NCBI GenBank assembly: GCA_948466335.1
Contig: CAOKAE010000013.1
Location: 1 to 46,569, forward strand
Length of the DNA stretch: 46,569 nucleotides
Reading direction: 5' to 3'
Source: an uncultured Coriobacteriia bacterium
GTDB lineage: Bacteria; Actinomycetota; Coriobacteriia; Coriobacteriales; QAMH01
Both the position numbers and the translations under genes were made by a program. The notes under the pieces were generated by a model, which saw only the letters and a program-made list of their open reading frames with translations, was not told the DNA's origin and made no database searches. This document shows positions 36,776 to 40,856 of this stretch, in pieces. How positions within the stretch are numbered: position 1 is the first letter of the stretch; each line of letters starts with the position of its first letter.

Positions 36776-38267
36776 TCCGCTCACGCTCATCCCCGTCCTC
36801 GTCTTTCTGCTCGTGACCTTTGCCGTCGTCATGGGCATCAATCGCCGTGCGGCTCTGCGTGGCGGCAACTTCGTCTCCGAGTACTTCATCGGCAACCGCA
36901 GCCTCGGCGGCTTCGTGCTCGCCATGACCACGATCGCGACCTACGGCTCGGTGAGCTCGTTTGTCGGCGGTCCCGGTCAGGCTTGGCAAATCGGCTGGGG
37001 CTGGGTGTACATGTCGGCCGTGCAGGTCACCGCGCTGTTCCTGCTCTTCGGCATTCTGGGTAAGAAGCTCGCGCTCATCAGCCGCAAGATCGGTGCCGTT
37101 ACCATCATCGACGTGCTGCGTGCCCGCTACAAGTCCGATGCGATCGCGAACGTCTCGGCGGTCATCATCCTGCTCTTTTTTGCCGCGATGATGGTGGCCC
37201 AGTTCGTCGGCGGCGCCAAGCTCTTCGAGTCCGTCACGGGCTATAGCTACGTGATCGGCTTGCTCATCTTCGGCATTGTCGTCATCTCGTACACGACCGT
37301 GGGCGGTTTTCGCGGCGTGGCGGTGACCGATGCCATTTGCGGCGTCATGATGATCGTCGGCATCGTCATCCTGGCAGCGGGCATACTCATTGCCGGCGGT
37401 GGCTACGAGAACATCATGCAGACCATCATGGCCGAAAACCCCGCCATGATGGATCCGCTTTCCGACGGAAACATGCCCATCGGCCTGTACGTGACCCAGT
37501 GGCTGCTCGTCGGCGTGCTCACCTTCTGCCTGCCCCAGTCGGTGGTGCGCTGCCTCGGCTTCAAGGACGAGAAGGCACTCAAGAACGCCATGGTCGTCGG
37601 CACGGTCATCATTGGGCTCATGATGATTTGCGTGACCGCCCTTGGCGTGTTGGCCAAGGGCGTGCTACCCGGCACGCTCGCGGAATACGGCGGCTCGGTC
37701 GACAACATCATCCCGCTCGCCATCATGGAGTCGCTGCCCGCTTGGCTCGCCGGCATCGCCATCGTCGGCCCCATCGCCGCGTCCATCTCGACGGTTTCCT
37801 CGTTGCTCATCAGTGCTTCCTCGTCCATCATCAAGGACATGTACATGCACCATTGCGATAAGCGGGGACATGAGGTCGCGGATACGAGGATATCGACCCT
37901 CTCGCGCATCTTTACATATGCCGTCGGCGTGCTCGTGCTCGTCATCGCCATCGCGCCGCCCGACGTCATATGGAAGATCAACATGTTCGCCTTCGGAGGT
38001 CTCGAAACGGCGTTTTGCTGGGCCTTCGTGATGGGACTGTTCTGGAAGCGGGCCCACGCCTGGGGCGCGTTTGCGTCGATGGCCGGAGGCGTGGTCGCCT
38101 ACTGCGTCACGATGGCGCTCGGCTTCAAGGTCTTCGATTTGCACCAGATCGTGATAGGGGCAAGCGTCTCGCTCGTGCTCATGCTCGTGTTCTCGTGGCT
38201 GGGCAACAGGTACGACCGTCAACGTGGCATCATCGACCAGCCCGACGGGGTGTTCTTCGTGGCTTAG
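36765..38267 (+). CDS. panF: Sodium:solute symporter, PanF (pantothenate) type
   Basis: 500 residues with about 13 membrane helices of the SSS family. Typical parts are SEYFIGNRSLGGFVLAMTTIATYGSVSSFVGGPGQAW near the N terminus and ISTVSSLLISASSSIIKDMY, which carries sodium-site Ser residues. The pairing with a YhdT-like partner is characteristic of the pantothenate permease PanF, so import of pantothenate with sodium is likely. AGGAGGGAG lies before ATG 36765. Its stop overlaps the 3' end of the convergent methyltransferase by 4 bp. Confidence 0.83.
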   Translation: MEGNPLTLIPVLVFLLVTFAVVMGINRRAALRGGNFVSEYFIGNRSLGGFVLAMTTIATYGSVSSFVGGPGQAWQIGWGWVYMSAVQVTALFLLFGILGKKLALISRKIGAVTIIDVLRARYKSDAIANVSAVIILLFFAAMMVAQFVGGAKLFESVTGYSYVIGLLIFGIVVISYTTVGGFRGVAVTDAICGVMMIVGIVILAAGILIAGGGYENIMQTIMAENPAMMDPLSDGNMPIGLYVTQWLLVGVLTFCLPQSVVRCLGFKDEKALKNAMVVGTVIIGLMMICVTALGVLAKGVLPGTLAEYGGSVDNIIPLAIMESLPAWLAGIAIVGPIAASISTVSSLLISASSSIIKDMYMHHCDKRGHEVADTRISTLSRIFTYAVGVLVLVIAIAPPDVIWKINMFAFGGLETAFCWAFVMGLFWKRAHAWGAFASMAGGVVAYCVTMALGFKVFDLHQIVIGASVSLVLMLVFSWLGNRYDRQRGIIDQPDGVFFVA

Positions 38268-39013
38268 AAACGTTGAAGTACGAGGTAGCAGTTCAGGTCA
38301 TCGTTGGGACCGTCGGCGTTGAAGCGCTCGACGAGATGAACCCGGTCGTTCACGTGCTCGATAAGCTCGTCGATTTCAGCGTTTGAGAAGCTATGACAAT
38401 AGCGCAGCACGGCAGGCTCGTTTTGCCAGCCGAGAAGCCAGTCACTCTCATCGAGCTTCAGGCCAGGATAGCGCTCGAGTGCGAGTTGTGTTGTTTGACG
38501 TGCTTTGTGACTTAAACGCTTGTCGTGCTCGAACTGCCAGAATGAGACAAGAATATAGCCGTTGATTTGTGTTTTATTAAGCATTGTATCTAAAAATGCT
38601 TCACGAGCTTCTTTACCGGGAATGTGATGCATGAGACCAAAAGCGCAGTTCAGGTCACATGCTGGTATATCGGCGAGTGCATCTTCCAGTTCATTGCTCC
38701 ATAAAGTAGATACAATGTCTAGATTGGTGAAGCGAAATTTGCTTTGGCTATCAAGAAGCGCGGGACATGAGTCGATGGCGTATACGGTCATCTGCGCATC
38801 CGTGTGTTGTTGTAAGAAGTCTTCGAAGCGCAGATTCCCGCAGCCAAAGTCGAGTACGGATAGTTCAGCTCCTACGAGCGTGCTGTCGAGTACACCGAGG
38901 CAACGCTCCCAACCATGCCAAGGGCGTGTGCGCGTGGAAGAAAATGACGCAGCGCAGCGTGCGTAGAAGTCACTGGTAAGTGTGTTGAGTATGTTGGCAG
39001 TTTCGCGGTTCAT
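38264..39013 (-). CDS. SAM-dependent methyltransferase, Trm9/ALKBH8-like
   Basis: 249 residues. Class I motif I is VLDFGCGN (53-60). Before it, FYARCAASFSSTRTRPW (about 16-32) strongly resembles the N-terminal F-S-x-T-R-x-x-P-W signature of eukaryotic Trm9/ALKBH8. Later, GLMHHIPG (127-133) and LVSFWQFEHD (155-164) match the HH and W-x-x-E/Q regions of that family. Trm9 methylates cm5U34 of tRNA, the product of Elp3, which is encoded divergently 34 bp away. The ATG follows a -10 box by 7 bp, so the mRNA may be leaderless. G+C is visibly lower than in neighbouring genes. The methyltransferase call is firm; the specific function is inferred. Confidence 0.75.
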   Translation of the reverse strand: MNRETANILNTLTSDFYARCAASFSSTRTRPWHGWERCLGVLDSTLVGAELSVLDFGCGNLRFEDFLQQHTDAQMTVYAIDSCPALLDSQSKFRFTNLDIVSTLWSNELEDALADIPACDLNCAFGLMHHIPGKEAREAFLDTMLNKTQINGYILVSFWQFEHDKRLSHKARQTTQLALERYPGLKLDESDWLLGWQNEPAVLRYCHSFSNAEIDELIEHVNDRVHLVERFNADGPNDDLNCYLVLQRF

Positions 39014-39020
39014 CTCCTGC

Positions 39021-39039
39021 ATTGTACGTGAGATACAAT
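39021..39039. promoter_or_regulatory. Palindromic divergent -10 pair for leaderless transcripts
   Basis: ATTGTA (39021-39026), which reads TACAAT on the minus strand, and TACAAT (39034-39039) on the plus strand form an inverted repeat with a 7-bp spacer. The plus-strand box ends 8 bp before the Elp3 ATG and the minus-strand box ends 7 bp before the methyltransferase ATG. Each transcript should therefore begin at or next to its start codon. No -35 boxes are visible. Confidence 0.7.
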
Positions 39040-39047
39040 CATGCATC

Positions 39048-40856
39048 ATGTACGAAGTGCTCGCAGACATAGTCGATGCCATACGCACGAAGGGGCCGCT
39101 TGACGCCCTCGAGCTCGGCCGGATTCTCAACGCCCACAACAAGCGGGTAGGGGGTGCGCAGCGCGCGTACTCCAAGAAGCGCATGCTGCCGTACTACCTC
39201 AAGCTCAAGGAGGAGGACCCGGATGCGTGGGCGGCGCTTGACATCGACGAGGAGCTCGAACGCCAGCTCTTCACGACGTTGCGCATGAAGCCCCGGCGCA
39301 CGGCGAGCGGCGTTGCCACCATTACCGTGATCACCAAGCCGCACGCATGCTCGGGGCATTGCCTGTACTGCCCCAATGACGTGCGCATGCCCAAGAGCTA
39401 CCTGCATCGCGAGCCTGCCTGCCAGCGTGCCGAGCGCAACTACTTCGACCCGTACCTGCAAGTGGCCTCACGCCTGCGCGCGCTCACGCAGATGGGACAC
39501 GCCTGCGACAAGATCGAGCTCATCATCTTGGGCGGCTCGTGGACTGACTACCCGGAGAGCTACCAGACCTGGTTCATGGCAGAGCTCTTCCGCGCGCTCA
39601 ACGAGGCGCCCGCTTCGTCCGAGGAGCTGAGGGTGCGGCGCGATCGCTATCGGGAGGTCGGCATCGACGGGCGCGACGAAGTGCTCGAGGCGCAGACGTG
39701 CGAGGTCCAGACTGCGGTCAACGAGGGTACGATCGACTACAACGATGCCATCGTGAAGCTCTATGGAGCAAAAAGCGCATGGGGGAGGGTCGCCGCGTGG
39801 CAGGCGGCGAGCTTCGACGAGCTTTTCGCGCAACAGCGCATCAACGAGAAGGCCGTCCATCGCGTCGTCGGTCTCGTCGTCGAGACGCGCCCCGAAACGC
39901 TCGATGCGCCTACGCTTGCGCGCTTGCGCGCACTCGGTTGCACGAAGGTGCAGATTGGCGTGCAGAGCCTACGCCCCGAGGTGCTGGCACTCAACAATCG
40001 TCCCGTTGACGAGACGGCCTTGCGTCGCGCATTCGAGTTGCTGCGTGTCTTCGGCTTCAAGATTCACACGCACTTCATGGTCAACCTGTACGGCTCGAGC
40101 ATTGTCGATGACGAGGCCGATTACGTGCGGTTCGTGAACGACGCGGCGTTTCAGCCTGACGAGGTCAAGCTCTATCCTTGCGTGCTCGTGGAGGGGACGG
40201 GGCTTGTCGAAAAGCACGGGAGCGGTCAGTGGCAGCCCTACGCGGAAAACGAGCTCGTCGAGTTGCTGGCACGCGATGTGCTCGCGACCCCTGCCTTCAC
40301 CCGCGTGTCACGCATGATTCGCGACATATCGGCGGTCGACATCGTGGCGGGGAGCAAGAAGACGAACCTGCGGCAGATGGTCGAGGCGTCGGACGTCCTG
40401 CGCGACGCCGCGGTGCGCGAGATTCGCTTTCGCGAGATTGCGGGAGATGAGGTCGAGCTGGACGAGCTTGCCCTCGAGGAGGTCGCCTACGAGACGACGA
40501 ACACGAGCGAGCGTTTCCTGCAATGGGTGACGCCACGGGGAAAGATTGCCGGTTTCCTGCGTTTGTCGTTGCCCCATGCGGAATACGTTTCCGCCCGTGC
40601 GGGCGAGCTTCCCGACGAGCTTGGCTGCGCGATGATTCGCGAGGTGCACGTGTACGGGCAGGTCGCGAACCTGCACCGTGCCGACGGCAGCGCCCAGCAC
40701 CTGGGACTCGGGCGTCAGCTCGTCGAGCGCGCCTGTGTCATCGCTCACGATGCGGGCTTCGGGCGCATCAACGTCATCAGCTCCGTGGGGACGCGGGACT
40801 ATTACCGCAGGCTCGGCTTTGGGGATGGGGATCTGTACCAGACGAGAGAGCTCTAG
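39048..40856 (+). CDS. Elp3-type tRNA uridine-34 carboxymethyl enzyme (radical SAM / acetyltransferase)
   Basis: 602 residues. The radical SAM part (about 90-400) has the cluster cysteines CSGHCLYC (101, 105, 108) followed by PND, with the Elp3-specific CxxC-PND/PGG context. The C-terminal GNAT-fold part (about 455-602) has the acetyl-CoA loop LGLGRQLVERA and DYYRRLGFG at the end. Elp3 uses SAM and acetyl-CoA to place a carboxymethyl group on uridine 34 of tRNA. Elp3 is uncommon in bacteria. ATG 39048 was chosen because of TACAAT 8 bp upstream (leaderless); the frame is open from 38982. The stop interlocks with that of murB in CTAG. Confidence 0.9.
   Translation: MYEVLADIVDAIRTKGPLDALELGRILNAHNKRVGGAQRAYSKKRMLPYYLKLKEEDPDAWAALDIDEELERQLFTTLRMKPRRTASGVATITVITKPHACSGHCLYCPNDVRMPKSYLHREPACQRAERNYFDPYLQVASRLRALTQMGHACDKIELIILGGSWTDYPESYQTWFMAELFRALNEAPASSEELRVRRDRYREVGIDGRDEVLEAQTCEVQTAVNEGTIDYNDAIVKLYGAKSAWGRVAAWQAASFDELFAQQRINEKAVHRVVGLVVETRPETLDAPTLARLRALGCTKVQIGVQSLRPEVLALNNRPVDETALRRAFELLRVFGFKIHTHFMVNLYGSSIVDDEADYVRFVNDAAFQPDEVKLYPCVLVEGTGLVEKHGSGQWQPYAENELVELLARDVLATPAFTRVSRMIRDISAVDIVAGSKKTNLRQMVEASDVLRDAAVREIRFREIAGDEVELDELALEEVAYETTNTSERFLQWVTPRGKIAGFLRLSLPHAEYVSARAGELPDELGCAMIREVHVYGQVANLHRADGSAQHLGLGRQLVERACVIAHDAGFGRINVISSVGTRDYYRRLGFGDGDLYQTREL

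Follow-up and report, generated by a model that had tools for sequence, protein, structure and literature searches.

Do bacteria possess a route to 5-methoxycarbonylmethyluridine (mcm5U), a modification of the tRNA wobble uridine (U34)? The question is raised by two adjacent genes, one for a Trm9-like methyltransferase and one for Elp3, on contig CAOKAE010000013.1 of an uncultured Coriobacteriia bacterium (assembly GCA_948466335.1); the whole stretch analysed, 46,569 nucleotides, is called the window below. A 2017 review reported that bacterial genomes had yielded no significant homologs of the methyltransferases that depend on Trm112 in eukaryotes, Trm9 included (PMC5372719). A 2020 review assigned only 5-carboxymethylaminomethyluridine (cmnm5U), 5-methylaminomethyluridine (mnm5U) and 5-aminomethyluridine (nm5U) of this group to bacteria, and mcm5U to archaea and eukaryotes (PMC7694415). 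The sequence-only reading of the window had proposed a candidate mcm5U34 pathway of a kind not described in bacteria, and indeed neither a bacterial mcm5U route nor a bacterial Trm9 was found in the open-access literature searched. We observed that many gut-type Actinomycetota encode relatives of the archaeal and eukaryotic mcm5U enzymes side by side and lack the usual bacterial wobble machinery. The two proteins very probably constitute a two-enzyme wobble-uridine route to mcm5U34 that would operate without Trm112 and stand in for MnmE/MnmG.

The two genes are divergent, as had been read from the sequence, with 34 bp between their start codons:

38264..39013, minus strand: Trm9-like class I S-adenosylmethionine (SAM)-dependent methyltransferase, 249 amino acids, start codon ATG at 39013
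39048..40856, plus strand: Elp3 with radical SAM and GNAT domains, 602 amino acids, 390.6 bits to TIGR01211

Homologs of the methyltransferase start at the same residue, and a single copy of the gene was seen in the whole window genome.

As a single sequence the methyltransferase gave no match in a phmmer search of the PDB, which called for a profile. Scans with Pfam and NCBIfam returned generic methyltransferase models only, all of them sub-threshold. Within the class there are 48 distinct relatives, mostly about 40-45% identical; a scan of contigs gave only three relatives, so that whole-genome searches were needed. When a profile of 27 relatives was searched against 177,635 PDB sequences, Trm9 of Yarrowia lipolytica (5CM2) came out on top (E=1.8e-6), the runner-up had E=9e-4, and CmoA chains were weak (E ~0.02). 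A search of the phylum revealed six more distant members outside Coriobacteriia. The profile of this second set again ranked 5CM2 first (E=1.9e-20, over residues 25-222), with a match that extends into the C-terminal region; most other listed matches cover the SAM core only. The two bacterial sets align over their full length (probability 99.7%). Among class I methyltransferases the closest relative in the PDB sequence search was thus Trm9 with both profiles, and not an enzyme outside the Trm9 clade.

The motifs FSSTRTRPW, HH and SFWQFE, on which the original family assignment was based, are all present in the 249-residue protein. The strict pattern of the class relatives includes F16 Y17, F24, R28, W32, G34 W35, D55, G59 N60, R62, H129 H130, R137, W159, D191, W196, R204, H207, D234 G235, N241 and Y243. 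R28, H129, R204 and N241 are 100% conserved in the 48 bacterial homologs and are identical to four of the five key residues of yeast Trm9, as mapped on a sequence taken to be that of the yeast enzyme. They belong to these motifs:

38918..38944, minus strand: FSSTRTRPW, residues 24-32; R28 is invariant and aligns with yeast Trm9 R29
38624..38629, minus strand: invariant HH pair, residues 129-130; H129 corresponds to H115 of yeast Trm9
38393..38404, minus strand: RYCH, residues 204-207; R204 corresponds to yeast R241, and C206 is at the position of yeast Y243
38285..38296, minus strand: LNCY, residues 240-243; N241 is invariant and aligns with yeast N271

The RYxH motif is also found in the second bacterial set. 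In yeast Trm9, R29, H115, R241, Y243 and N271 are needed for activity, and mutating them has a strong effect on both the affinity for tRNA and the activity (PMC5372719). The motifs of the yeast sequence used are exact at R29 and H115 in the numbering of PMC5372719 and lie 2 residues early in the C-terminal part; because of this offset the C-terminal residues were placed by way of the RYYH and DNW motifs.

The partner gene encodes an Elp3 by several measures. The TIGR01211 score lies above the cut-off of 350 bits, the Pfam models Radical_SAM, Radical_SAM_C and Acetyltransf_1 were all above cut-off, and among solved structures the protein matches Elp3 of Methanocaldococcus infernus (E=8e-77) and of Dehalococcoides mccartyi (5L7J, E=2e-74). 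Both the radical SAM cysteines and the GNAT domain noticed in the sequence were borne out, the latter by Acetyltransf_1. C101/C105/C108, K155, K338, E532 and Y585, residues for the [4Fe-4S] cluster and for acetyl-CoA hydrolysis, are invariant; the last four are equivalent to K150, K266, Q461 and Y517 of M. infernus (PMC6367351). Two features of the radical SAM domain can be located:

39348..39371, plus strand: radical SAM motif CX3CX2C (C101, C105, C108), with the spacing of D. mccartyi Elp3
39621..39827, plus strand: insertion of about 67 residues (192-260), absent from the solved Elp3s

The insertion possibly contacts a partner or the tRNA. In the second set the Elp3s are shorter, by about as much as the insertion is long. 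The zinc-binding cysteines that bacterial and archaeal Elp3s have in the linker were not found in the window Elp3, where RCRCIRCRE of M. infernus aligns with AVREIRFRE. Their lack is not decisive for membership because eukaryotic Elp3s are also without the three cysteines (PMC6367351).

The distribution of the two genes was surveyed in 398 genomes of the class, with a separate sample of the phylum. The methyltransferase occurred in 248 and Elp3 in 249 of the class genomes: 245 had both, 3 the methyltransferase only, 4 Elp3 only and 146 neither (Fisher p ~6e-100, not corrected for relatedness). Among the genomes with the methyltransferase only (G342, G372 and G378), the contig of G378 ends inside a partial elp3; among those with Elp3 only (G096, G199, G307 and G387), in G199 the end of a contig lies 424 bases away from the start of elp3. 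Both genes are jointly absent from single genomes of genera that otherwise have both (G056 of g14, G112 of g26, G365 of g73 and G259 of g68), and further joint absences were seen in the less complete genomes G351 (g57) and G011 (g109). In the phylum sample Elp3 was found in 18 class members and in six outside genomes, which are exactly the six outside carriers of the methyltransferase. The trees of the two genes agree (r=0.76, 0/2000 permutations); both join the gene of the window with the copy from its own genus, and both mix families.

Linkage was counted in the 94 genomes with both gene positions listed. The genes lie within 500 bp of each other in 84 of them, divergently in 81 (median distance 79 bp) and co-directionally in 3; eight further pairs are 0.5-4 kb apart, so that 92 of the 94 fall within 4 kb, one pair is 78 kb apart and one is on different contigs. 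A close divergent arrangement in 81 of 94 genomes is far beyond chance. In the second set elp3 is divergent on the same contig in four genomes, at distances of up to about 1.6 kb, and in the remaining two a contig end is close to the methyltransferase start. Linkage to Elp3 is therefore kept throughout Coriobacteriia and in Actinomycetota outside the class, as a conserved neighbourhood would have it. One genome with a linked methyltransferase gene also has a second, unlinked copy (G058:C4:255279-256079). The second set, a bacterial family more Trm9-like than the first (L080-L083 from G453, G465, G641 and G429, together with L079 and L084), comes from six non-Coriobacteriia Actinomycetota with small genomes, where the methyltransferase gene is divergent near elp3. 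The Elp3s near it are of a more archaeal type (about 600 bits to TIGR01211).

What, then, of the usual bacterial system? MnmG was above cut-off in 1 of the 398 class genomes, and not in the window genome, in a search that scored the top candidates of each genome only; among 14 control genomes, 9 exceeded the cut-off. Weak MnmG matches, of some 40-60 bits and at about positions 290-408, were judged from their partial coverage and score to be other flavin adenine dinucleotide (FAD) enzymes and were set aside. The single full MnmG (G071:C8:4785-6713) may be a contamination or a recent acquisition. MnmE was over the cut-off in none of 23 genomes, its matches being judged by the same two features to be other GTPases. 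The missing MnmEG route lends strong additional support to the Elp3-Trm9 interpretation. Since some genomes of the class have neither the pair nor MnmG, neither system is indispensable there.

CmoB was over the cut-off in none of 13 genomes, the window genome included. The 2-thiolase MnmA exceeded its cut-off in 22 of 23 genomes, the exception being the window genome. Genome G304, of the same genus, has a strong and a weak MnmA copy, and a strong copy may be missing from the window assembly. As for Trm112 (PF03966), none was above cut-off in the window genome, so the statement that no Trm112-like partner is visible held genome-wide. In three other genomes PF03966 was over the cut-off in stretches of 23-26 residues inside open frames of 320-448 amino acids. 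Because no Trm112 partner was found we speak of a Trm9-like enzyme rather than of a canonical Trm9-Trm112. Candidate substrates are present in the window genome, where tRNAs Lys(UUU), Glu(UUC), Gln(UUG), Arg(UCU), Gly(UCC) and Leu(UAA) were found.

The proposed pathway would begin with Elp3, which would place a carboxymethyl group on C5 of U34 by means of acetyl-CoA, SAM and its [4Fe-4S] cluster, giving 5-carboxymethyluridine (cm5U). The Trm9-like enzyme would then methylate the carboxylate at the expense of SAM, converting cm5U34 to mcm5U34; it would act alone, as one protein with no Trm112. In tRNA-Lys, -Glu and -Gln the base would probably also receive a 2-thio group from MnmA (mcm5s2U34), and the pair would replace the MnmE/MnmG lacking in the class. 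It is likely that mcm5(s2)U34 is made in this way by a large group within the Actinomycetota, with a two-gene elp3-trm9 cassette that is free of Trm112, cooperates with MnmA and replaces MnmE/MnmG.

Linkage and co-occurrence would suit any step after Elp3. The methyltransferase could act on the Elp3 product with another end result, either an ester intermediate toward 5-carbamoylmethyluridine (ncm5U) or methylation of cm5s2U only. According to PMC3110198, ncm5U accumulates in yeast trm9 mutants, an indication that these pathways are entangled. The residues conserved here are, however, those thought to orient cm5U in Trm9, and we regard a different end product as unlikely. That the enzyme serves another tRNA position or another molecule and is kept next to elp3 for some other reason, its likeness to Trm9 being one common to class I folds at large, appears less likely still. 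The fold search does not discriminate and the Pfam and NCBIfam models are generic, which such a role would allow; but Trm9 was the top PDB sequence match of two profiles, the N- and C-terminal motifs held in common lie outside the SAM core, and it is difficult to see why else the gene should accompany Elp3 almost one to one. CmoM likewise methylates a wobble carboxylate, and the profile search did give weak matches to CmoA chains. It is nevertheless highly improbable that the enzyme is a CmoM-like carboxyl methyltransferase of uridine 5-oxyacetic acid (cmo5U34): the Trm9 score was far better than that of CmoA, and we discarded the role on the lack of CmoB, the maker of cmo5U.

Several observations weigh against the two-enzyme route to mcm5U34. 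To our knowledge the known Trm9s require Trm112. The direct similarity of the methyltransferase family to Trm9 is modest (E=1.8e-6), the fifth key residue, yeast Y243, is a cysteine (C206), and the residue mapping relies on a sequence that we take to be that of yeast Trm9. The AlphaFold2 model of the methyltransferase is confident (pLDDT 94.3), but Foldseek lists many class I methyltransferases, with 5CM2 in second place; because the scores of these enzymes are nearly equal, the fold alone proves nothing on Trm9 identity. Finally, the MnmA match of the window genome (G000:C9:17345-18439) is full-length but reaches 206.6 bits, below the cut-off of 237. The overall interpretation as a Trm9-like enzyme paired with Elp3 stood up nevertheless, since none of the outcomes that could have refuted it by computation occurred.

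The space between the genes deserves a comment of its own:

39014..39047, no strand: intergenic region of 34 bp containing two TACAAT boxes that face each other, probable divergent leaderless promoters by consensus match

The -10-like TACAAT box of elp3 is at -14 (39034-39039, plus strand) and that of the methyltransferase gene at -13 (39026-39021, minus strand). Most of the divergent relatives have a TANNNT sequence that begins 12-16 nt ahead of the start codon of elp3. Because TACAAT lies 13-14 nt before each start codon and TANNNT is kept in relatives, the data suggest that the two transcripts are leaderless and divergent. The shared promoter proposed earlier is plausible in this light, the evidence being that of the consensus. 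The opposed boxes form an inverted repeat (ATTGTA-7-TACAAT, 39021-39039) that could also be an operator.

The methyltransferase gene has a G+C (guanine plus cytosine) content of 0.50, lower than that of elp3 (0.64) and of the window (0.62), which had been taken as a hint of transfer. This hint is unsupported because the two gene trees agree and the gene groups with its own genus. The family-wide means are similar (0.57 for the methyltransferase and 0.58 for elp3), and together with the same-genus placement in both trees this led us to reject transfer of the methyltransferase alone. The methyltransferase evolves faster, with 43% identity to the same-genus copy versus 71% for Elp3.

How does the pair compare with known systems? 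The methyltransferase shares with yeast Trm9-Trm112 (5CM2) and the methyltransferase domain of ALKBH8 the class I fold, the TRxxPW N-terminal motif, HH, RYxH and the terminal N motif, as well as a position after Elp3/Elongator, which is predicted for the bacterial pathway. It differs in being bacterial, in having no detected Trm112, in the cysteine at the Y243 position and in a gene divergent to elp3. The archaeal systems of Haloferax and Sulfolobus also combine a single-subunit Elp3 with a Trm9 homolog, and in S. solfataricus elp3 and trm9 are clustered (PMC2584109, PMC5372719); there, however, methylation is described as the work of Trm9-Trm112 (PMC7694415), and thiolation is predicted via Tuc1 and not MnmA. 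The Elp3 of D. mccartyi (5L7J) is likewise a bacterial single-subunit enzyme with CX3CX2C and a GNAT domain, whereas the Coriobacteriia Elp3 has the insert of about 67 residues and no linker zinc cysteines. The passages of PMC6367351 consulted describe no methyltransferase partner for the D. mccartyi enzyme, and no downstream step for a bacterial Elp3 is described in the portion of the open-access literature covered. MnmE/MnmG with MnmC or MnmL/MnmM, which make the bacterial 5-substituted (xm5U34) nucleosides, serve the same position and the same decoding role with unrelated enzymes and chemistry, and are missing from the class. If the proposed pathway is correct, U34 chemistry is not domain-specific, an Elp3-Trm9 system lets bacteria dispense with MnmEG, and a small single-chain Trm9 becomes usable for studying the origin of Trm112 dependence. 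The kind of pathway is already known; what is new is its bacterial and apparently Trm112-free form.
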